A stretch of 64,000 nt of DNA, taken from the NCBI GenBank assembly GCA_036984305.1, contig BQWY01000001.1:3679501-3743500 (forward strand), given 5' to 3'. Below are positions 10,148-64,000 of this stretch, one piece after another. This DNA is from Nitrospira sp. GTDB lineage: Bacteria; Nitrospirota; Nitrospiria; Nitrospirales; Nitrospiraceae. Positions within the stretch are counted from its first letter, which is position 1. Every line of letters starts with the position of its first letter. Both the position numbers and the translations under genes were made by a program. Below the pieces are notes generated by a model that was given only the letters and a program-made list of their open reading frames with translations, had not been told where the DNA came from and did not search any database.

Positions 10148-11680
10148 TCAAGAGGGAAGATCGAAGGCAATTCCCTGTGCCAATGGCAAATCAGTTCCCC
10201 AATTGATGGTACTGGTCTGCCGCCGCATGTACGCCTTCCAGGCGTCCGATCCGGCTTCACGGCCCCCTCCCGTTTCCTTTTCGCCGCCGAACGCCCCACC
10301 GATCTCCGCCCCGGACGTCCCCAGGTTGACGTTGGCAATGCCACAGTCGCTTCCGGTTCCTGACAAAAACCGTTCGGCGTGCCGAAGATGAGTGGTAAAG
10401 ATCGCCGAGGACAGCCCCTGCGGCACGTTATTCTGGATTGCGATCGCTTCCTCGACCGTCTTGAACGACATCACGAAGAGAATCGGCGCGAAGGTCTCAC
10501 GCCGGACGACCTCCCAGGAGGACTGCGCACGAACGATGGTAGGCTCGACAAAATTGCCCTGCCGGTCGAGCACCCGCCCCCCGAACAGGATCTCTCCGCC
10601 TTGCCCGACCGCCTCCTTCAATGCGGATTCGTAGGTCTTGACCGCCTGCCGATCGATGAGCGGTCCCATGAAGACATGTGCGTCGAGCGGATCGCCGATT
10701 GCCACGGACCGATAGGCCGCAATCAATCGAGGAAGCAGCCGTTGGAGTTGGGACTCGTGGACGATGAGCCGCCGCGTGGTCGTACATCGCTGTCCCGCAG
10801 TCCCGACGGCGCCGAACACGATGGCTCGAACGGCCAAGTCGAGATCGGCTTCTTCGTCGACGATGACGGCGTTGTTGCCGCTTAACTCCAGCAATGTGCG
10901 ACCGAGTCGTCGGCCGACGACCTCCGCCACGCGCCTGCCGACGGGAACTGATCCGGTAAATGAAATCAGCGGCAATCGGACATCGGCCACCATATACTCC
11001 GCGTCATCGACCCGATCCGTCACGAACAACGTGAACACACCAGAGTGCCCCGCTGCCTCGAGCACGCGATTACAGAGGTGCTGCACGGCAAGGGCGCACA
11101 GGGGCGCCTTGGGAGACGGCTTCCAAATGACCGTGTCACCGGCAATTGCGGCGAGGAACGCATTCCAGGCCCAGACCGCGACCGGGAAATTGAATGCCGT
11201 GATCACCCCGATCGAGCCCAAGGGATGCCATTGCTCGTACATGCGATGATGGGGCCGCTCCGACTGCATCGTATGGCCGTACAGCATCCGCGATTGACCG
11301 ACGGCAAAATCTGCCATATCGATCATCTCCTGCACCTCGCCGTCACCCTCAGCTTTGATCTTTCCAACTTCCAACGACACCAATGTGCCAAGCGCATCTT
11401 TGTGCTGGCGCAAGGCTTCTCCAACTCGCCGAATGATCTCTCCACGCCTCGGCGCCGGGACGAGGCGCCATCGTTGAAACGTATCCTGTGCAGTGCGCAC
11501 CACGCGCTCGTAGTCGTCGCGGGTTCCCAGGGTGACTGCGGCGAGCGGCGTACTGGTGGTGGGGTTGATGGATTGGAGCCGGTGCCCGCTTGTCACGCCC
11601 GACCACCACACCCCAGCATTGGCCCCCGAGTTGAGCGAGGCGAGGCCAAGGGACGTGAGAATCTGGGCAGAATCAATCAT
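10148..11680 (-). CDS. Aldehyde dehydrogenase, alpha-aminoadipic semialdehyde (ALDH7) type
   Basis: This NAD-dependent aldehyde dehydrogenase of 510 residues probably oxidises alpha-aminoadipic semialdehyde (or its cyclic form, piperideine-6-carboxylate) to 2-aminoadipate. Motifs are the NAD-binding FTGSVPVGRR loop (residues 241-250), Glu265 in LELSGNN and the catalytic Cys299 in GQRCTTTRR. The segments RMYEQWHPLG and TAFNFPVAVWAWN and the C-terminal GGAFGGEKETGGGREAGSDAW are typical of the ALDH7/antiquitin group. It lies between a saccharopine dehydrogenase-like gene and the HglS-like gene, all on the minus strand, which fits lysine degradation through the saccharopine or pipecolate routes. 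GAAAGG precedes the ATG. Confidence 0.85.
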   Translation of the reverse strand: MIDSAQILTSLGLASLNSGANAGVWWSGVTSGHRLQSINPTTSTPLAAVTLGTRDDYERVVRTAQDTFQRWRLVPAPRRGEIIRRVGEALRQHKDALGTLVSLEVGKIKAEGDGEVQEMIDMADFAVGQSRMLYGHTMQSERPHHRMYEQWHPLGSIGVITAFNFPVAVWAWNAFLAAIAGDTVIWKPSPKAPLCALAVQHLCNRVLEAAGHSGVFTLFVTDRVDDAEYMVADVRLPLISFTGSVPVGRRVAEVVGRRLGRTLLELSGNNAVIVDEEADLDLAVRAIVFGAVGTAGQRCTTTRRLIVHESQLQRLLPRLIAAYRSVAIGDPLDAHVFMGPLIDRQAVKTYESALKEAVGQGGEILFGGRVLDRQGNFVEPTIVRAQSSWEVVRRETFAPILFVMSFKTVEEAIAIQNNVPQGLSSAIFTTHLRHAERFLSGTGSDCGIANVNLGTSGAEIGGAFGGEKETGGGREAGSDAWKAYMRRQTSTINWGTDLPLAQGIAFDLPS

Positions 11681-53952: not shown

Positions 53953-54600
53953 TTATACTGAACTCGCATTGTCCGTCCCACGACGAGGCCAATGGGACCG
54001 GAGAAAATAGACGAGAGCGACAAAGAGTGCGACACCAATGACAATATCGATCTGGTGAAAATACTGTCGCAGCCCGTCCCAGTGCTCCCCCATCACCATG
54101 CCGATGTAGGCCAGCAAGAGACACCACGGGAACGCGCCGATGAAGGAGTACACGACGAATCGCCAAAACGGCATCTTGGCAATCCCGGCAGGCAAGGAGA
54201 TGAACGTCCGGATAACCGGCAGGAGGCGACCGATCAACACCGCCCACTCACCATACCGCGCAAACCACCGATCGGCATGATCGAGATCCTGCGGGCGAAT
54301 CAGCATGTATGGTCCATACCGCTCCACGAATGGACGGCCTCCATACACGCCGGCATAGTACGCCACAATCGAGCCCAGGACGTTGCCGATTGTCCCGGCC
54401 AGCGTCACGCCGAGCAACGTAAATTGTCCGTTCAAGACCAGATAGCCCGAGAAGGGCATGATAATCTCACTGGGCAGAGGGATGCAGGCACTTTCAATCG
54501 CCATAGTCAGGACGATCCCCGTATAGCCCAAAGCAGAAATGGTCGCAATGATGAATCGACTCAGTTCGGCTACGATATATTCGATCAGCTCACCAATCAT
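53953..54600 (-). CDS. DedA-family membrane protein
   Basis: This 215-residue inner-membrane protein has the DedA fold: AISALGYTGIVLTMAIESACIPLPSEIIMPFSGYL at the start with the ESA and PSE motifs, and RYGEWAVLIGRLLPVIRTFISLPAGIAKM with the conserved R and G..R motifs. Four or more membrane helices follow. DedA proteins act as lipid flippases (including undecaprenyl-phosphate recycling in some members). Its first codon overlaps the surE stop as ATGA. Confidence 0.9.
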   Translation of the reverse strand: MIGELIEYIVAELSRFIIATISALGYTGIVLTMAIESACIPLPSEIIMPFSGYLVLNGQFTLLGVTLAGTIGNVLGSIVAYYAGVYGGRPFVERYGPYMLIRPQDLDHADRWFARYGEWAVLIGRLLPVIRTFISLPAGIAKMPFWRFVVYSFIGAFPWCLLLAYIGMVMGEHWDGLRQYFHQIDIVIGVALFVALVYFLRSHWPRRGTDNASSV

Positions 54601-55400
54601 GCCCCAGCCCCCTGGCTTACGCTACGTCGACGAGTACTCGTGCTGGTTTCGACAAAGGGAGGCCAGCGGCGAATCTCCTCTAAGACATCCACATGCGTCA
54701 TGTCGAGATGGAGCGGAGTCACCGACACATACCGCTCGCGCAAGGCGGTATGATCGGAATCAGCTTGGCGCTTCCACGTGATTCGTGTACCAGCAATCCA
54801 GTAATAGTGTCGCCCGTGAGGGTCGAGCTTTTCGATGATCGGGTTGTCAAATCGGCGTCGACTCAATCGCGTCACTCGCAAACCTCGAATCGCGGCTCTG
54901 GGCTGGTCGGGCACATTCATGTTCAGCAAGGTCTCCGGCGGCAAGGCCTGATAGAGCATCATCCGCGCCACAACCAAGGCATAGGCCGCTCCGACCGGAA
55001 ATCGGAAGCGTTCGCGTCCTTCTTGCGACACGGCCAGTGACGGGATTCCCATAATCGTCCCTTCAAGCGCCGCCGACACAGTTCCCGAATAGGTCACGTC
55101 GTCTCCGAGATTCACCCCTCGGTTGATGCCGGATACGAGCAGGGCCGGACGCTTGGGGAGCACCTGCTGCACAGCAAGGTTCACGCAATCGGTCGGCGTC
55201 CCGTTTACGCTATACCAGCGGGCCCGCACACGCGTGACCCGCAGCGGTTTGTGAAGCGTCAACGCATGGCCAACGGCCGTCCGTTCCCGATCAGGCGCGA
55301 CGACCCACACGGTCCCGAGACGTGACATGACCCGCGCCAGGGCCTGTAGGCCTACCGAGGAGATACCGTCGTCGTTGGTTATGAGTATGGTCGGCGACAC
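54597..55400 (-). CDS. surE: 5'/3'-nucleotidase SurE
   Basis: This 267-residue metal-dependent nucleotidase opens with ILITNDDGISSVGLQALA, the DD active-site motif of SurE, and later has the LALDKPLRVTRVRAR-like region and VSGINRGVNLGDDVTYSGTVSAALEGT, which is highly conserved. The start is GTG at 55400, with no strong ribosome site visible. It is preceded by tRNA-Pro and its terminator and is followed by the DedA gene with a 4-base overlap. Confidence 0.94.
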   Translation of the reverse strand: MSPTILITNDDGISSVGLQALARVMSRLGTVWVVAPDRERTAVGHALTLHKPLRVTRVRARWYSVNGTPTDCVNLAVQQVLPKRPALLVSGINRGVNLGDDVTYSGTVSAALEGTIMGIPSLAVSQEGRERFRFPVGAAYALVVARMMLYQALPPETLLNMNVPDQPRAAIRGLRVTRLSRRRFDNPIIEKLDPHGRHYYWIAGTRITWKRQADSDHTALRERYVSVTPLHLDMTHVDVLEEIRRWPPFVETSTSTRRRSVSQGAGA

Positions 55401-55666: not shown

Positions 55667-56071
55667 TCACGACGCTTCGGTGCGGGAGTGGACCTCCAAC
55701 AATCGAAGAATGGCCTGCAGATCACCTCGGAGCCGCGTGGCGATCTCCCTGGGCGATTTCTTCCCCTGCGCATGGCGCCCCCGCCGCGACCAAAACCGCT
55801 TGACGCCTTCAAGGGTATGCCCCTCGTCATAGAGCATGCGGCGAATCTCAAGCACGGTCTCAATATCGCGCTGGACGTATAACCGTTGATTCCCACGGCT
55901 TTTCTTTGGCCTTAGGAAGGTGAACTGAGACTCCCAAAACCGAAGCACGTAGGCGGGCAATTTGGTGATTGCGCTGACCTCGCCGATTTTGTAGAACACC
56001 TTCGTCCCGAGCCTGGGGACGCTGTGGTGAGGATTGCTCCGCGCGGTGGAGGTAGACGTCCTAAGATCCAT
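55667..56071 (-). CDS. MerR-family transcriptional regulator
   Basis: This 134-residue protein has the MerR winged-helix domain: FYKIGEVSAITKLPAYVLRFWESQF, the recognition KSRGNQRLYVQRDIETVLEIRRMLYDEGHTLEGVKRF, then a basic C-terminus. It has no metal- or drug-binding C-terminal domain, which is typical for the short MerR genes next to ihfA. The ATG at 56071 overlaps the ihfA stop; a TTG one codon upstream is possible. The targets are unknown. Confidence 0.88.
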   Translation of the reverse strand: MDLRTSTSTARSNPHHSVPRLGTKVFYKIGEVSAITKLPAYVLRFWESQFTFLRPKKSRGNQRLYVQRDIETVLEIRRMLYDEGHTLEGVKRFWSRRGRHAQGKKSPREIATRLRGDLQAILRLLEVHSRTEAS

Positions 56072-56346
56072 CAAGAGTTGACGTATTTTTTAAACACCTG
56101 GCTTGGACGGAACGTCACCACGCGACGCGGCGTGATTCCGATCTCTTCTCCCGTCCGTGGATTGCGGCCCTTCCGTGGCCCCTTGCTACGCACAATGAAG
56201 TTGCCAAAGCCCGCAATTTTGACCGATTCGCCTTTGTTGAGCACGGCTTTCAGCATGTTGAGGATGAGCTCGACAATATCCGCGGCTTCGTTCTTCGAGA
56301 TCCCAACCTGCTTGAAGATTTCGTTCGCGATGTCAGCCTTTCTCAT
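56071..56346 (-). CDS. ihfA: Integration host factor alpha subunit / HU-family protein
   Basis: This 91-residue nucleoid protein belongs to the HU/IHF family: MRKADIANEIFKQVGISKNEAADIVELIL, then VKIAGFGNFIVRSKGPRKGRNPRTGEEIGI with the beta-arm proline in NPRTGE and the end VTFRPSQVFKKYVNS. It bends DNA as part of an IHF heterodimer; IHF is commonly needed for sigma-54 promoters such as the one proposed at 44.6 kb. The gene starts behind GCAGGGGGGA and is coupled to the MerR gene. Confidence 0.92.
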   Translation of the reverse strand: MRKADIANEIFKQVGISKNEAADIVELILNMLKAVLNKGESVKIAGFGNFIVRSKGPRKGRNPRTGEEIGITPRRVVTFRPSQVFKKYVNS

Positions 56347-56485: not shown

Positions 56486-58132
56486 TTACTGCGCTCGATC
56501 CCGCCTCAAAAGCTTGTATTCAATGCCGTCCGCAAGGGCCTGCCAACTGGCCTCCATGATGTTTTCTGAAACCCCAACGGTCCCCCATTTTTCTTTTTGA
56601 TCTCCGGACTCGATCAAGACACGTACTTTTGCTCCCGTACCCTGAGTGGCCGCCAAGACTCGGACCTTGTAGTCCAGTAGGCGAACTTCGCGGAGTTCAG
56701 GGTAAAACTTTTCGAGCGCCTTCCGGAGCGCATGATCAAGCGCATTCACCGGGCCTTTCCCAACGGCAGCCGTATGCTCGACTTCGGCACCAACCTGAAC
56801 CATGACCGTTGCCTCCGAGCGTGATTCGAGATCGTTTTCCCCCTTTTCGACGATGACGCGGAATCCCAACAACTGGAAGGACGGACGATGGGTTCCGAGG
56901 GCCTTGCGCACCAACAGCTCGAACGAGCCTTCCGCACCTTCGTATTGATAACCCTCATTCTCCCGCGCCTTGAGCGTTGTCACCAGTTCGTGCGTCGCGG
57001 CTTGGTTTTTTCGCAGCGAAATGCCAAACCCCTCGACCTTTGCCAACAAACCGCTCCGCCCGGCATAGTCGGACACCAGGAATCGCTGGCGATTTCCGAC
57101 CAATTCCGGGCGTACGTGCTCGTAGGTGGAGGCATTCTTTTGTACCGCATGAATATGCACCCCGCCTTTATGAGCAAACGCCGAATCGCCCACGTATGGT
57201 TGATGCTTATCCGGCACCAGATTTGCGATTTCAGCCACGAAGTGGGAGACCACACGCAGTCGTGACATCCGTTCCCCTAGGACCGGTCTGCCCATCTTGA
57301 GCTGGAGGTTCGGAAGAATCGAACAGAGATTGGCATTTCCACATCGCTCACCGATACCGTTGATCGTTCCTTGGACTTGACGGACGCCGGTCTCAAGGGC
57401 CATCACTGAGTTGGCGACGGCCATCTCACAATCATTATGCGCGTGGATGCCCAGGGGGACCGGGACCACGCGACTGACCACGGAGCAGATCTCCCGAATT
57501 TCCCAGGGCATCGCCCCACCGTTCGTATCGCAAAGGATAATGCGCTGAGCACCAGCTTGAACGGCACGCTGCAATGTCCGGATCGCGTATTCGGGATCCA
57601 TTTTATATCCATCGAAAAAATGCTCCGCATCGTAGAACACCTGTCGCCCTTTCGACCGCAGGTAATCGATAGACTCACCGATGAGATCCAAATTCTTAGC
57701 GAGAGAGATGCCCAGCGCGTCGGTGACGTGGAGAGGCCAACTCTTGCCGAAAATCGTGATGGTCCCGGTTTCCGATGCCAGCAAGGCCTGGAGATTTGGA
57801 TCCCTTCGCACGGGATTGCTTGCCTTCCGAGTCGAGCCAAACGCCACAACTGTGGCGTGCTTCAGAGGTACCGTTTTGATGAGACGGAAAAACTCAATAT
57901 CTTTTGGATTAGCGCCCGGCCATCCGCCTTCGATGAAGTCGACGCCCAATTCGTCTAGCCGACACGCGATCAAGACCTTGTCATCGGCCGAGAAACTAAC
58001 GTCTTCAGACTGAGCGCCGTCACGTAACGTCGTATCGTATACTTCCAGGTCTGCCTTGGTAGCCGACACACGAGGCGACGCCATGACGTTGGACAACTGG
58101 GTGGACTGATGTCGTGATACTCGACGAGCCAT
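56486..58132 (-). CDS. cimA: (R)-citramalate synthase
   Basis: This 548-residue enzyme condenses pyruvate with acetyl-CoA to (R)-citramalate, the first step of the threonine-independent isoleucine route. The barrel starts with EVYDTTLRDGAQSEDVSF; further motifs are GADEL-like DFIEGGWPGANPKD, LCDTNGGAMPWEI, IHAHNDCEMAVANSVM and NGIGERCGNANL. The C-terminal regulatory LeuA allosteric-type domain begins near SFELLVRKALG. The length and DFIEGGWPG motif place it with CimA rather than LeuA. It follows the aspartate kinase gene by 36 bases, so it belongs to the amino-acid operon. Confidence 0.9.
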   Translation of the reverse strand: MARRVSRHQSTQLSNVMASPRVSATKADLEVYDTTLRDGAQSEDVSFSADDKVLIACRLDELGVDFIEGGWPGANPKDIEFFRLIKTVPLKHATVVAFGSTRKASNPVRRDPNLQALLASETGTITIFGKSWPLHVTDALGISLAKNLDLIGESIDYLRSKGRQVFYDAEHFFDGYKMDPEYAIRTLQRAVQAGAQRIILCDTNGGAMPWEIREICSVVSRVVPVPLGIHAHNDCEMAVANSVMALETGVRQVQGTINGIGERCGNANLCSILPNLQLKMGRPVLGERMSRLRVVSHFVAEIANLVPDKHQPYVGDSAFAHKGGVHIHAVQKNASTYEHVRPELVGNRQRFLVSDYAGRSGLLAKVEGFGISLRKNQAATHELVTTLKARENEGYQYEGAEGSFELLVRKALGTHRPSFQLLGFRVIVEKGENDLESRSEATVMVQVGAEVEHTAAVGKGPVNALDHALRKALEKFYPELREVRLLDYKVRVLAATQGTGAKVRVLIESGDQKEKWGTVGVSENIMEASWQALADGIEYKLLRRDRAQ

Positions 58133-58168: not shown

Positions 58169-59395
58169 TCATACAACGGGAACTGCATCCAACCCAAAGG
58201 CTGAATGGAGAGCCCGCATTGCCAATTCCATGTACTTTTCCTCTATGACACAGGAGATTTTGATCTCCGACGTGCTGATCATCATGATGTTGATCCGTTC
58301 GTGTGACAGCACGTCGAACATTTTGGCCGCCACACCTGAGTGTGATCGCATACCCACACCGACCAGAGAGACTTTTGCGATCGACTCGGTCACGGCCACG
58401 GATTTCGCCTCGACTTCTTTCGCCAGTTGCTGGACCAGGTCGACCGCCTTGGGAAGATCGACACGCGGAACCGTGAATGAAATGTCAGTCATATCGGCCT
58501 GGCTAACGTTTTGAATGATCATATCTACAAGGATGTTCGCCTCGGCCACCGGGCCGAATATCCTCGCTGCAATACCAGGGTGGTCCGGCACGCCCACGAT
58601 CGTGATCTTGGCTTGATTACGATCTCCACTGACTCCCGACACCATCACGCGTTCCATGTCGGCATCTTCTCGTGTCACGAGCGTTCCCTTTCCGTCCTTA
58701 AAACTCGACCGGACCTCGATCGGCACGTTGTATTTTGCCGCAAATTCGACCGAACGGCTCTGTAGCACCTTTGCGCCTAGGCTGGCCAACTCCAACATCT
58801 CCTCGTAGGCGACGCGGTCCAACCGTCGGGCAGCCGGCACCACGTTGGGATCGGCCGTATAAACGCCGTCAACGTCTGTAAAGATGATACAGCGGTCCGC
58901 TCTCAACGCACCGGCAAGGGCAACGGCCGTGAGATCGGACCCGCCCCGCCCAAGCGTGGTCACATCGTTCTGATCGTTGATACCCTGAAATCCAGCCACG
59001 ACGGGGACCACACCGCGCTCGAGAGCGTGCGTGATGCGTTCCGCCGTTACGCGGGTAATGCGGGCCTTCGTATGAGAATTATCCGTCATGATTCCCACCT
59101 GACGCCCTGTAAAGGAGCGGGCATCGACTCCCCGCCCTCGCAACGCCATCGCTAGCAATGCGATCGTCACACGCTCTCCGGTCGAGAGCAACAGGTCCAA
59201 TTCGCGCTCGTCGGGACGAGAGGTCATCTCATGGGCCAATCGAATCAGCCGATCGGTTTCACCGCTCATCGCCGACAAGACCACCACCACACGATGTCCT
59301 TCGCCGCAAGCCTTTGCCACCCGGTCCGCCACACAATGGATCCGTTCGACCGTTCCCACGGAGGTACCGCCGTATTTGTGCACGATGACGGCCAT
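58169..59395 (-). CDS. lysC: Aspartate kinase
   Basis: The start at 59395 is fixed by AAGG upstream, and translation begins with [19 protein letters not shown], the standard aspartokinase opening. The 408-residue enzyme has TFTGRQVGI-like and [39 protein letters not shown] motifs, and two ACT domains ([38 protein letters not shown]) near the C-terminus for lysine/threonine feedback. It phosphorylates aspartate to start lysine, threonine and methionine synthesis. Only the final seven bases separate it from the apgM-like gene. Confidence 0.95.
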
Positions 59396-59402
59396 TTCGA
59401 CC

Positions 59403-60644
59403 TTACTTTTTGAGCAAACGGGTGAGCAACCGCAACCCGTCCCGGATCGGGCTCCCCGAATCAGTCGCATGGGCCTCACTGAAGGCCATTCCGTTGCTTC
59501 GCTCGCCTGCCGCAGGATCGACGACCGCTGCGAGGGCCTTGTAACTGGAGTCGCGCGGGCTCGCCGGATCCTCGGAATGGTCGCACACCAGCATGACCCG
59601 ACCCGAGCCAGTTTTTCGCAACGACTCGACCAGAGGACCCACGAGATCACGGTCGAATGCTTCGATGGCCTTGGCTTGTTCCGCGATGGGCGCCCCACGG
59701 TCCACCAGAGCCGACAAGTCGGTATGCACACACACCAAATCCTTCCGAGCTAATTCGTGCAGCGCACCCTCTCGTATCGCCTGGAGTGCCCCCACCCGCG
59801 AGACCGCCTCATCGAGCTCGATGCTTTCAAAGCCCGTGCAGATCCCGAGCCCGCGATGCAGGTTGCTGGTCGAAACCATGGCACCGCTGATGCCATGCGT
59901 ATCCGGCAATGCTGGCCACCGCGGGGCCCGACCCTGCCCCCAGAGCCACACACAGGTCGCCGTGTGCTGCCCTGCCTCCCGACGATCAAGGTTGACGGGA
60001 TGATCCCGCAGCACCACCACCGAGGCATCCATCACCTTTCTGAGCATTTCCGCGCCGTCGCCGTTGGGAAGGTGCTCTCCGATGGCGTGTCCCTGCACGA
60101 GCAGAGGATCCGTACAACTCGCTCGGTACTTCCCATTCACCCAAACCATATAGTGGTGATGACCCAAACCGGGATAAAATTGAATGGTTTCCGAACCGAT
60201 ACCCTCGTTCAGCGCATCAATCAATTCGCGCGCTTCGTCCGTCTCGATCCCGCCGGCGTTCGCATCCTCCAATACGGCGGATGGACTCAATTTTTTGGCA
60301 TCGAGATTCATTGGCTTCCCGGATGAAGCATGTTCGGAACGCAAAGTGACCAACTGAGCCCGGTACACGATATCGTGTTCACCGACCGAAATCCCCAACC
60401 CCACCGCTTCAAGCGGCGCCGGCCCGGTCGAATATTTCTTCGGATCATAGCCTAGCATGCTGAGCCCCGTCAGCTCCGCTCGTGGCGCGAGACCTTCCAC
60501 GGGAATCGTCACCCAACCGAATTCGCCTGCCCGGGCCAGGCGATCCAAATTCGGGGTATGTGCCGCTTCGAGCAGCGACCTCCCCCCTAACGACGAGCGC
60601 GACCCATCCGCGAATCCTTCACCGTGAATGATGAGATACTTCAT
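59403..60644 (-). CDS. ApgM-like protein, candidate alternative homoserine kinase
   Basis: This 413-residue protein belongs to the cofactor-independent phosphoglycerate mutase (ApgM/alkaline phosphatase superfamily): [69 protein letters not shown] and a C-terminal [10 protein letters not shown]. Two expected active-site residues differ. The Asp in the N-terminal DGxAD is Glu9 here. The nucleophile Ser of the usual GSDVA is replaced (PRAELTG, Ala). It lies between aspartate kinase and thrC, in the place where thrB would be, and some ApgM-like proteins have been reported as homoserine kinases. A kinase role is therefore more likely than mutase. Confidence 0.7.
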
Positions 60645-60662: not shown

Positions 60663-61721
60663 CTACAGGTGAAGGAGCCGTGCCACCTCATCTCGACTGG
60701 CCTTCACGGTGATCGGTTGAACCGACACTTTCATAGCCGTGTCCGGGTCCTTGAGCCCATGCCCGGTCAAAGTGCAGACCACGATCTCTCCCTCGTGAAT
60801 CTTCCCCTCGCGCCACATCTTTGTAATGCCCGCTACCGACGCGGCAGACGCCGGTTCACAAAATACACCTTCTTCCCGCGCCACCAACTTGAAGGCCTCC
60901 AGAATCTCTTCATCCGTCACCATCTCAATCGCACCTGCTGATTCCTCCACAGCCGAAAGGGCGCCGTTCCAGCTGGCTGGATTCCCAATCCGAATCGCCG
61001 TGGCAATCGTTTGCGGGCACTCCACCTTGTGCCCCAACACAATCGGCGCGGCACCGGCTGCCTGAAATCCGAACATGCGTGGCACGCGGGAGACTTGGCC
61101 CGCCGTGCGGTACTCGGTATATCCACGCCAGTAAGCAGTGATATTACCTGCGTTGCCGACGGGAAGGGCATGGATCGTCGGTGGTTCGCCGAGTTGGTCG
61201 CACACTTCAAAACTGGCTGTTTTTTGCCCCTCAATGCGAAACGGATTCACTGAGTTGACCAATTCAATGGCATTCGATTCTGCCAGTTCTTTCACGATCG
61301 TCAACGCCTGGTCGAAATTGCCCTCTATCTGAATCACCGTGGCCTGATGCATCATGGCTTGAGAGAGTTTGCCGAGGGCAATTTTGCCAGCGGGGATCAG
61401 CACATACACAGCGAGGCCAGCCCGCGTACCATAGGCGGCCGCGGAGGCCGATGTATTTCCGGTCGACGCGCAGATGACGGCCTTCACCCCAGCCTCGCAA
61501 GCCTTAGAGATGGCCAGGGTCATCCCCCGGTCTTTGAACGATCCTGTCGGATTGGCGCCTTCGAACTTTAGATAGAGGCGTATACCGGGTGCAATGCGTG
61601 CGGCCAGGCGAGAGGCCGGGACGAGCGGTGTGTTGCCTTCCAGCAACGTCACCACGGGCGTCCCCTCCGTCACGGGAAGAAACTTGCGGTACTCTTCGAT
61701 TAAACCCCGCCAGCGCGCCAT
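60663..61721 (-). CDS. thrC: Threonine synthase
   Basis: This PLP enzyme converts O-phosphohomoserine to threonine. The start ATG at 61721 (GTG at 61724 also possible) is preceded by GAGGGA. The 352-residue product shows [15 protein letters not shown], the PLP lysine in [12 protein letters not shown] (Lys63), the glycine loop [13 protein letters not shown] for phosphate binding, and [17 protein letters not shown]. It is of the shorter, bacterial/archaeal type. It is 38 bases after hom and 18 before the apgM-like gene. Confidence 0.95.
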
Positions 61722-61762
61722 CACACGAATTCCCTCATAAGCTTCCTCAGAACGTGGACTCG

Positions 61763-63076
61763 CTATTCGTCAGGGCCTTCGACGCGAATGAGTGTTGTGG
61801 GTTCGGACACGAAGGGCATTCGATTAATCTCCTGCAATGCTGCCTGCACGGCCCGCTCGGTGGCCTGATGCGTGCGTATGACGACGGGCACCGTGTGGCC
61901 GTCCTTCCGTCCCTGTTGCAACACCGTCGAGATGCTGATGCGCTGATCGCCCAATACACCGGCAATGAGTGACAGCACACCCGGCTGATCCACAACCATG
62001 AAGCGCAAATAGTACAAGGATTCGATATCCGACATGGGACGGACGCGCAAAGGACGTCGTTGCTCCTGCTGAAATGACGCCGGTGGGACCCGGCCGATGC
62101 CGCCCCGGAGAAGATTGCGCGCGATGGACAAAATGTCACTGACGACGGCGCTGCCCGTTGGAAGAGACCCGGCACCGCGCCCGTACAGCATGACGTCGCT
62201 CACGGCGTCTCCGACCACCTGAATTGCATTGTACACCCCGTTAACCTGGGCCATGGGCGAGGTCACGGGAATCATGGTCGGATGGACGCGGGCCTCGATT
62301 TCGCCCTCGGTGAACTTCGCGATGCCCAGGAGCTTAATGGCATATCCAAACTCTTTCGCGTAAGCGAAGTCGAGCGGGGTCAGCTTGGTGATGCCCTCTG
62401 TCGCAATCTCCTTCACATCGACAGGTGTGCCATAGGCCAGATTCACCATGATGGCCAGTTTGTGCGCCGAATCGATGCCTTCGACGTCGAACGTGGGATC
62501 GGCTTCCGCGTAACCGGCACGGGTCGCTTCCTTGAGAACGTCGGCAAAACTCCGGCCCTCCTGCATCATTCGGGTGAGAATGTAATTCGACGTCCCGTTG
62601 ATGATCCCATAGATGGACAGGATCGTGTTGGCTGCAAGCCCTTCCGTCAGGGCACGAACAATCGGGATGCCGCCCCCGACGCTGGCTTCGAATCCAAGGT
62701 CGATGCCGCGCCGTGTCGCAGCCTCAAAAATCTCCTCGCCGTGCACCGCCAGCAGGGCCTTATTGGCCGTGACGACCTGTTTCCCTTTCGCGATGGCGTC
62801 GAGCATCACCCGCTTGGCAGCTTCGTACCCACCGATCAATTCCACCACGATGTCGATCGACGGATCGTCCAGAATGGCGCGTCCGTCCGCGATCAGCATG
62901 TCGGACGGCAGGGTGAGCCCCCGATCTCGCGATACGTCGAGGTCCGCCACGCGCACGAGCTCCACCGGTACGCCCACGCGCCTACGAATGATCTCGGCAT
63001 TCTGCAACAGAATTCTGGCGACACCGGTCCCAACGGTCCCAAATCCGATAATGCCGACACCAATGCGGGACTTCAC
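61763..63076 (-). CDS. hom: Homoserine dehydrogenase
   Basis: This 437-residue NAD(P)-dependent enzyme reduces aspartate semialdehyde to homoserine. The Rossmann loop is [17 protein letters not shown]. The catalytic region has [35 protein letters not shown] and [14 protein letters not shown], plus [20 protein letters not shown]. The C-terminal ACT domain ([21 protein letters not shown]) gives feedback control by threonine. The first codon is GTG and overlaps the aminotransferase stop by 4 bases. Confidence 0.96.
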
Positions 63077-64000
63077 GCCTTGGCCCCTCCCAACTTCAAC
63101 ACCCGCTTGATCCCGCGCACGGCCTGCCTAGTTCGATGCTCGTTTTCCACGAGTGCAAACCGGACGTACTCGTCACCACCCTCGCCGAAGCCGATACCGG
63201 GAGACACCGCGACCTTGGCCTCGCGGAGCAGGAGTTTTGAAAACTCCAACGAGCCCATGGCGTGGAATGCCTGAGGGATACGAGCCCAGACGAACATCGT
63301 GGCGCGAGGCATATCGACCGGCCATCCGATGCGATTCAGCCCGTTCACCAGTACGTTCCGGCGCTTTTGATATCGTTGCACCGTCTCTTTCACGCAATCC
63401 TGCGGTCCATTGAGTGCGATGATGCTGGCAATTTGGACCGGCTGGAAGATTCCATAATCCAGGTAGCTCTTGATCTTCCCCAGCGCCCCGATGATCTCTT
63501 TGTTTCCCACGCAGAAGCCGACGCGCCAGCCGGGCATGTTGTAGCTTTTCGACAGCGTGAAAAACTCAACCCCGATGTCCTTGGCCTCGGGAATCTGCAA
63601 CAAGCTCGGTGCCCTGTAGCCGTCGAAAACCAAGTCGGCATAGGCATAGTCGTGGATCACAATCAAATTGTGCTCTTTCGCAAAGGCCACGACCTTCTTG
63701 AAGAATTCCAGATCGACTACCGCGGTGGTGGGATTATGCGGAAAATTCAGGACCAAAATTTTTGGACGCGGCAGCGTCTGCTTATACGCTTGCAGCAAGT
63801 CGTCGAAGAAATCGCTATCGGGGCGCAAGGGCACTCCACGAACCTCGCCGCCTGCAATGATGACACTGTACATGTGAATCGGATACGTCGGAGTTGGAGT
63901 CAACACGACATCACCGGGACCAATCATCGCCAGCGCCAAATGGGCGATCCCCTCCTTGGAGCCGATCGTCACGATGGCTTCAGTCTCCGGGTCGAGATCC
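63073..64000 (-). CDS. Class I/II aminotransferase, AlaC-like (5' partial)
   Basis: The frame is open to the right edge ([17 protein letters not shown] continues past 63972), so the N-terminal part is outside the window. The visible 308 residues are a type I fold PLP aminotransferase: [14 protein letters not shown], the PLP lysine in [19 protein letters not shown], and [17 protein letters not shown]. The C-terminal [27 protein letters not shown] is typical. The closest group in memory is AlaC/YfdZ, alanine or glutamate-pyruvate aminotransferase, often next to hom. It heads the hom-thrC-apgM-lysC-cimA run. Confidence 0.9.

Follow-up and report, generated by a model that had tools for sequence, protein, structure and literature searches.

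An ApgM-fold protein with a degenerate active site in the homoserine kinase place of the Nitrospira threonine operon

Nitrospira-type nitrite oxidisers grow autotrophically in mineral media and so have to synthesise threonine, but no homoserine kinase can be assigned to them. The question raised by this locus is whether the ApgM-like protein encoded between thrC and lysC carries out the kinase step, and what it might do otherwise. A limited literature search returned no report of a Nitrospira homoserine kinase, of a pseudoenzyme reading or of a degenerate Nitrospira-type group.

The threonine operon and its ApgM-like gene

The window is the whole 64,000-nucleotide stretch of Nitrospira sp. DNA that was analysed. 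An earlier note, made from the letters alone, read an operon in the order aminotransferase-hom-thrC-apgM-like-lysC-cimA, found no thrB in it and placed the apgM-like gene where homoserine kinase belongs. All of this held. Every neighbour on the minus strand was named by NCBIfam (Table 1), thrB is absent among the neighbours of the apgM-like gene, and that gene occupies the homoserine kinase place in the threonine operon. The gene order is conserved across the window's family, referred to below as the Nitrospira-type family, and the apgM-like slot is the same wherever the flanks could be read. The apgM-like open reading frame is intact, with an ATG start and zero internal stops. On the 3' side of cimA, frames judged by eye resemble a MerR-like regulator (55667-56074, minus strand) and an HU/IHF-like protein (56071-56346, minus strand); a SurE-like frame (54597-55400) and a DedA-like frame (53953-54600), both on the minus strand, were also recognised by eye in the window.

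Table 1. Genes of the operon and active site positions of the ApgM-like protein in the window
Feature	Position	Strand	Basis
cimA, citramalate synthase	56486..58132	-	TIGR00977, 741 bits
lysC, aspartate kinase	58169..59392	-	NF005155, 635 bits
ApgM-fold, TIGR02535/ThrB2-related protein with degenerate active site	59403..60644	-	413 aa; profiles and structure
Asp365 in C-terminal metal-1 His column (3kd8 H351)	59550..59552	-	alignment
Asp355-His356, sole catalytic residues left (3kd8 D341-H342)	59577..59582	-	alignment
Arg316 in metal-1 His column (3kd8 H306)	59697..59699	-	alignment
Ala312 in metal-1 Asp column (3kd8 D302)	59709..59711	-	alignment
Ala56 in nucleophilic Ser column (3kd8 S60)	60477..60479	-	alignment and codon read
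Glu9 in metal-binding Asp column (3kd8 D13)	60618..60620	-	alignment and codon read
thrC, threonine synthase	60663..61724	-	TIGR00260, 327 bits; full-length match to 2zsj and 1uim
hom, homoserine dehydrogenase	61763..63076	-	NF004976, 549 bits
Aminotransferase, LL-DAP/alanine aminotransferase-like, truncated at window edge	63073..63999	-	NCBIfam

The window protein scored below every curated NCBIfam cut-off. The nearest families were PRK04200 (287.7 bits, cut-off 426), TIGR00306 (280.1 bits, cut-off 320) and TIGR02535 (277.9 bits, cut-off 446.3). Pfam returned PF10143 (137.1 bits) and a weak match to PF01676. The nearest solved structures by sequence are the ApgM proteins 3kd8, 2zkt and 3idd. 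An AF2 model built from a 22-sequence alignment had a pLDDT of 89.1 and a pTM of 0.88, and VIA-align superimposed it on 2zkt with Z 37.0 and an rmsd of 2.9 over 361 residues at 21% identity. Because the model is of this quality and matches 2zkt, and because the nearest solved relatives are ApgM, the window protein is assigned the ApgM fold. It is related to, and has diverged from, TIGR02535/ThrB2, which has been put forward as an alternative homoserine kinase. It is not a member of TIGR02535, since it falls below the score cut-off and lacks the catalytic site, despite occupying the ThrB2 place. In one FastTree run the window's family and its sister family formed a single clade (local support 1.0).

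Loss of the catalytic site and retention of the gene

The window protein was aligned with 3kd8, 2zkt and 30 canonical TIGR02535 proteins, which are the 30 top-scoring TIGR02535 matches from other classes of the same phylum. Columns were designated as metal ligands or nucleophile according to the known chemistry of cofactor-independent mutases, which we take to apply here. All seven of these columns (D, S, D, H, D, H and H) are intact in 30/30 canonical members. In the window protein Ala56 replaces the nucleophilic Ser and Glu9 replaces the first metal Asp, as the earlier note had proposed and as the codons confirm. The loss exceeds what was claimed, extending to A312, R316 and D365, and 2/7 catalytic residues are kept. 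Alignment error was considered as the source of the missing residues and rejected: in the window protein, S, T and C are all absent up to two residues either side of the nucleophile column, and the 22 residues that follow D355-H356 include no His.

The comparison was extended to 55 family proteins, those from the sampled family loci. None of them has all seven catalytic residues; between 1 and 5 are kept. The Ser column contains S in 39/55 proteins and G, A, P, T, R or N in the others, and the metal columns are likewise variable between orthologues. The aligned C-terminal His is absent in 55/55 proteins. Another His, in the following loop, is found in 18/55 and could replace the lost ligand; the window protein is not among these. 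Catalytic loss is clade-wide and reaches beyond the window protein.

Catalytic residues had a mean retention of 0.49 in the family, versus 0.59 for the remaining canonical-invariant columns (p 0.28 by permutation for a lower value). The corresponding means in the sister family were 0.29 and 0.59. The family treats the active site like any other part of the protein. Because catalytic residues are retained no better than the other canonical-invariant columns, the reading as an active enzyme is disfavoured. A different set of residues is well kept. R95, N218 and R221, among others, are present in 55/55 family proteins, and H7, E41, K118, R139, N146, E147, Q155 and R264 are invariant or nearly so in the family and not in the canonical group. 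R264 stands in place of a Lys that is invariant in the canonical group. Both R95 and R264 are variable in the sister family.

The apgM-like gene itself is retained. Of the family genomes with completeness of 90% or more and contamination of 5% or less, 80/80 carry it. A simple pairwise estimate (Nei-Gojobori) gave dN/dS values of 0.04-0.23 in 16 close pairs, including pairs without the Ser; the gene is thus under purifying selection. The values were higher than those of the neighbouring genes in most of the 16 pairs. The apgM-like protein also diverges faster than its neighbours: within the family it shares 43-62% identity with the window protein, where the aminotransferase and the hom, thrC and lysC products stay at about 68-92%. 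Since gene order is conserved across the family and selection is purifying, the observation is more than chance.

Sister-family genomes have the gene in degraded form, once as a pseudogene, and two otherwise intact operons lack it altogether. The G221 copy (L198, 4867-6044), between intact thrC and lysC, is frameshifted and has four in-frame stops. Nitrospira sp. SB0662_bin_26 (L204) and Nitrospirales MEX2-MAG7 (L207) keep aminotransferase-hom-thrC-lysC-cimA with the apgM-like gene missing; the gap between thrC and lysC is 169 bp (11059-11229) in the former and 286 bp (11059-11346) in the latter. The sister family may show the end of apgM-like decay. In one sister-family genus, which may or may not include L204 and L207, no TIGR02535 match and no GHMP ThrB rose above background. 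The GHMP ThrB search in the order covered genomes other than L204 and L207. No candidate kinase gene was seen beside the operon around L183, L194, L204 and L207, where frames were judged by eye from length and first residues. Frames near these loci resemble pdxJ, nnrD and tsaE, the last of which was confirmed by a profile scan.

The search for other kinases and mutases

By sequence ThrC is an ordinary threonine synthase, related to 2zsj and 1uim, so O-phosphohomoserine is probably still needed as its substrate. Known homoserine kinases were sought by profile. The GHMP kinase ThrB (TIGR00191) was above cut-off in 0/98 family genomes, with a best score outside the window's assembly of 54.5 bits. 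ThrB type II (TIGR00938, cut-off 255.9 bits) was likewise found in 0/98, the best score being 53.7 bits. In a phylum sample of 246 genomes, 23 had GHMP ThrB above cut-off, 123 had TIGR02535 and two (G104 and G158) had both.

A shikimate-kinase-like homoserine kinase of the DvMF_0971 type was also considered. Shikimate synthesis needs a shikimate kinase. Most relatives have one strong SKI match, which that pathway already requires, and this candidate was rejected. Weaker second SKI matches (about 31-49 bits) occur in some relatives' genomes only. In the window's genome two SKI matches are strong, and the suspect segment described below accounts for one.

The earlier note had asked whether a thrB exists elsewhere in the genome. 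The assembly does contain one, although its setting argues against a native gene. A GHMP homoserine kinase at C1:1345174-1345983 scores 277.5 bits with NF002288 (cut-off 194) and 167.3-167.7 bits with TIGR00191 (cut-off 168.25), and heads a thrB-thrC-hom-lysC set. It sits in a segment of ~38 kb (G000, C1:1337383 to about 1375100; L008, L071, L072) with a GC content near 65% versus 58-59% outside. Its start falls within tuf. Over 130 nt the C1 copy agrees with intact tuf, after which the sequences part abruptly, and the last base of contig C2 lies in tuf 3' sequence that is identical to the intact copy at 135/135 positions. The segment contains groEL-, dnaJ- and grpE-like genes (by eye, from first residues), a shikimate kinase and a tRNA, and its far end is near a groEL. 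This thrB is absent from 97/97 other sampled family genomes, a sample that does not include a congeneric genome. From the GC, the gene content and the tuf pieces, we judge it most likely that foreign DNA was joined in during assembly to give a chimera, real transfer being the alternative. The C1 gene was rejected on these grounds as proof of a native classical thrB.

The genome was also examined for phosphoglycerate mutases. No second intact ApgM paralogue and no GpmI were found in the window's genome. GpmA is present (L006; TIGR01258, 275.6 bits, cut-off 81.7), which answers the earlier suggestion to look for another gpm. A histidine phosphatase is encoded at L005 (1447-2109, minus strand); among NCBIfam profiles it comes closest to alpha-ribazole phosphatase and other phosphatases, all with sub-threshold scores.

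Explanations and comparison with known systems

The explanation we favour, to which we give about an even chance, is that the window protein is a pseudoenzyme of the threonine branch and that the kinase step is carried out by another enzyme of a type not yet recognised. The protein would descend from an alternative homoserine kinase of the TIGR02535/ThrB2 type, in whose operon place it sits. We read it as a pseudoenzyme because the two-metal, phosphoserine site has decayed across the whole Nitrospira-type family. It would keep the ApgM fold together with conserved residues, polar and basic, in the cap and in the presumed phosphate-binding region (R95, N218, R221 and the Lys to Arg264 change), and might serve the threonine branch non-catalytically. 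One such role would be that of a partner to ThrC, Hom or LysC that senses a phospho-ligand or forms a complex. Homoserine would then be phosphorylated by a kinase of the unrecognised type. Inactivity, a role in regulation and a separate kinase are all inferred. A counterpoint is that the substrate pocket could still act by other chemistry, given the polar or basic residues that are invariant or nearly so in the family and not in the canonical group.

The next explanation, possible but rather unlikely, is an active homoserine kinase with rebuilt chemistry. Transfer would be direct and in-line, using D355-H356 and the newly invariant residues and dispensing with the two-metal Ser site. Several observations fit: the gene is under purifying selection and occupies the ThrB2 place, no other ThrB type was found in the family, basic residues are family-invariant, and some enzyme must do the step in an autotroph. 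Against this, the catalytic columns vary freely between orthologues, with S, G, A, P, T, R or N in the Ser column and similar variation at the metals. We know of no working active site of the alkaline-phosphatase superfamily with columns that vary so freely. Furthermore, hom and thrC persist in sister genomes whose operon lacks the apgM-like gene, so another enzyme can presumably do the step there. The stronger proposal, that a metal- and nucleophile-independent homoserine kinase evolved within the alkaline-phosphatase-superfamily fold, with direct transfer by residues newly invariant in the Nitrospira-type family, we consider unlikely.

It is less probable that the protein has moved away from the homoserine kinase step to bind or convert a related phospho-metabolite. 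Conservation of the fold and of parts of the cap region would fit, and a Dehalobacter relative in TIGR02535 has been proposed as an L-threonine kinase (PMC4285132), but family members strictly hold the slot between thrC and lysC. It is less probable again that the gene is a functionless relic heading for loss. The broken (G221) and missing (L204, L207) copies of the sister family would suit a relic, but dN/dS is well below 1 and the gene is found in every one of the 80 near-complete family genomes.

We think it very improbable that the thrB on C1 belongs to the organism and that its arrival freed the apgM-like gene to decay. Its NF002288 score is well above cut-off and it heads a full thrB-thrC-hom-lysC set, but the segment around it, about 38 kb long and 65% GC, breaks into tuf at nucleotide 130, and C2 ends in the matching tuf 3' sequence. 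In addition, 0/97 other sampled family genomes carry this thrB, yet their ApgM-like proteins lost catalytic residues too. Finally, the fold and HMM similarity notwithstanding, the protein is almost certainly not the cell's phosphoglycerate mutase, a reading already contradicted by the sub-threshold TIGR00306 score and the presence of GpmA; an ordinary phosphoserine-forming mutase is ruled out with Ser and Asp gone, as the earlier note had argued.

If the pseudoenzyme explanation is true, a catalytically dead protein lies within a core amino-acid operon and a new type of homoserine kinase is still to be found. If the kinase with rebuilt chemistry is true, a known superfamily gained phosphotransfer without its metals. 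Annotation as phosphoglycerate mutase or ThrB2 is unsafe for Nitrospira-type proteins.

The earlier note mentioned ApgM-like homoserine kinases in Bacteroides and Desulfovibrio. The Bacteroides statement is borne out by the candidate BT2402/ThrB2 (PMC7311316, PMC9026213). TIGR02535 was proposed as a homoserine kinase, and BT2402 is needed for growth without threonine although it did not complement an E. coli thrB mutant (PMC7311316). ThrB2 and thrB occur complementarily in gut genomes (PMC9026213), and BT2402 retains its zinc sites (PMC9765024). The window protein resembles TIGR02535/ThrB2 in its fold, its place beside thrC and lysC, its full-length alignment (277.9 bits) and the complementary occurrence with thrB. 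It differs in scoring below the 446.3 cut-off and in having lost 5/7 catalytic residues. Since the zinc sites of BT2402 are kept and the canonical phylum members have every catalytic residue in 30/30 cases, and the window protein shares neither property, it cannot simply be filed with BT2402.

The archaeal ApgM proteins (2zkt, 3kd8, 3idd) have the same fold (Z 37.0 to 2zkt), but the window protein is without the nucleophilic Ser, has lost metal ligands and has other residues in place of the basic ones of the DRRAGR motif. Classical ThrB (TIGR00191) and ThrB type II (TIGR00938) share the presumed pathway step and belong to families unrelated to the window protein. The Desulfovibrio statement was mistaken as to type, as the homoserine kinase DvMF_0971 is related to shikimate kinase (PMC5764234); DvMF_0971 and, as a candidate, the window protein are both non-orthologous solutions to the homoserine kinase step, and the proteins are unrelated. 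Dehre_1608 of Dehalobacter, a TIGR02535 relative with the putative function of CbiU, an L-threonine kinase (PMC4285132), has a proposed role outside the homoserine step and lies in a corrinoid operon rather than a threonine operon.
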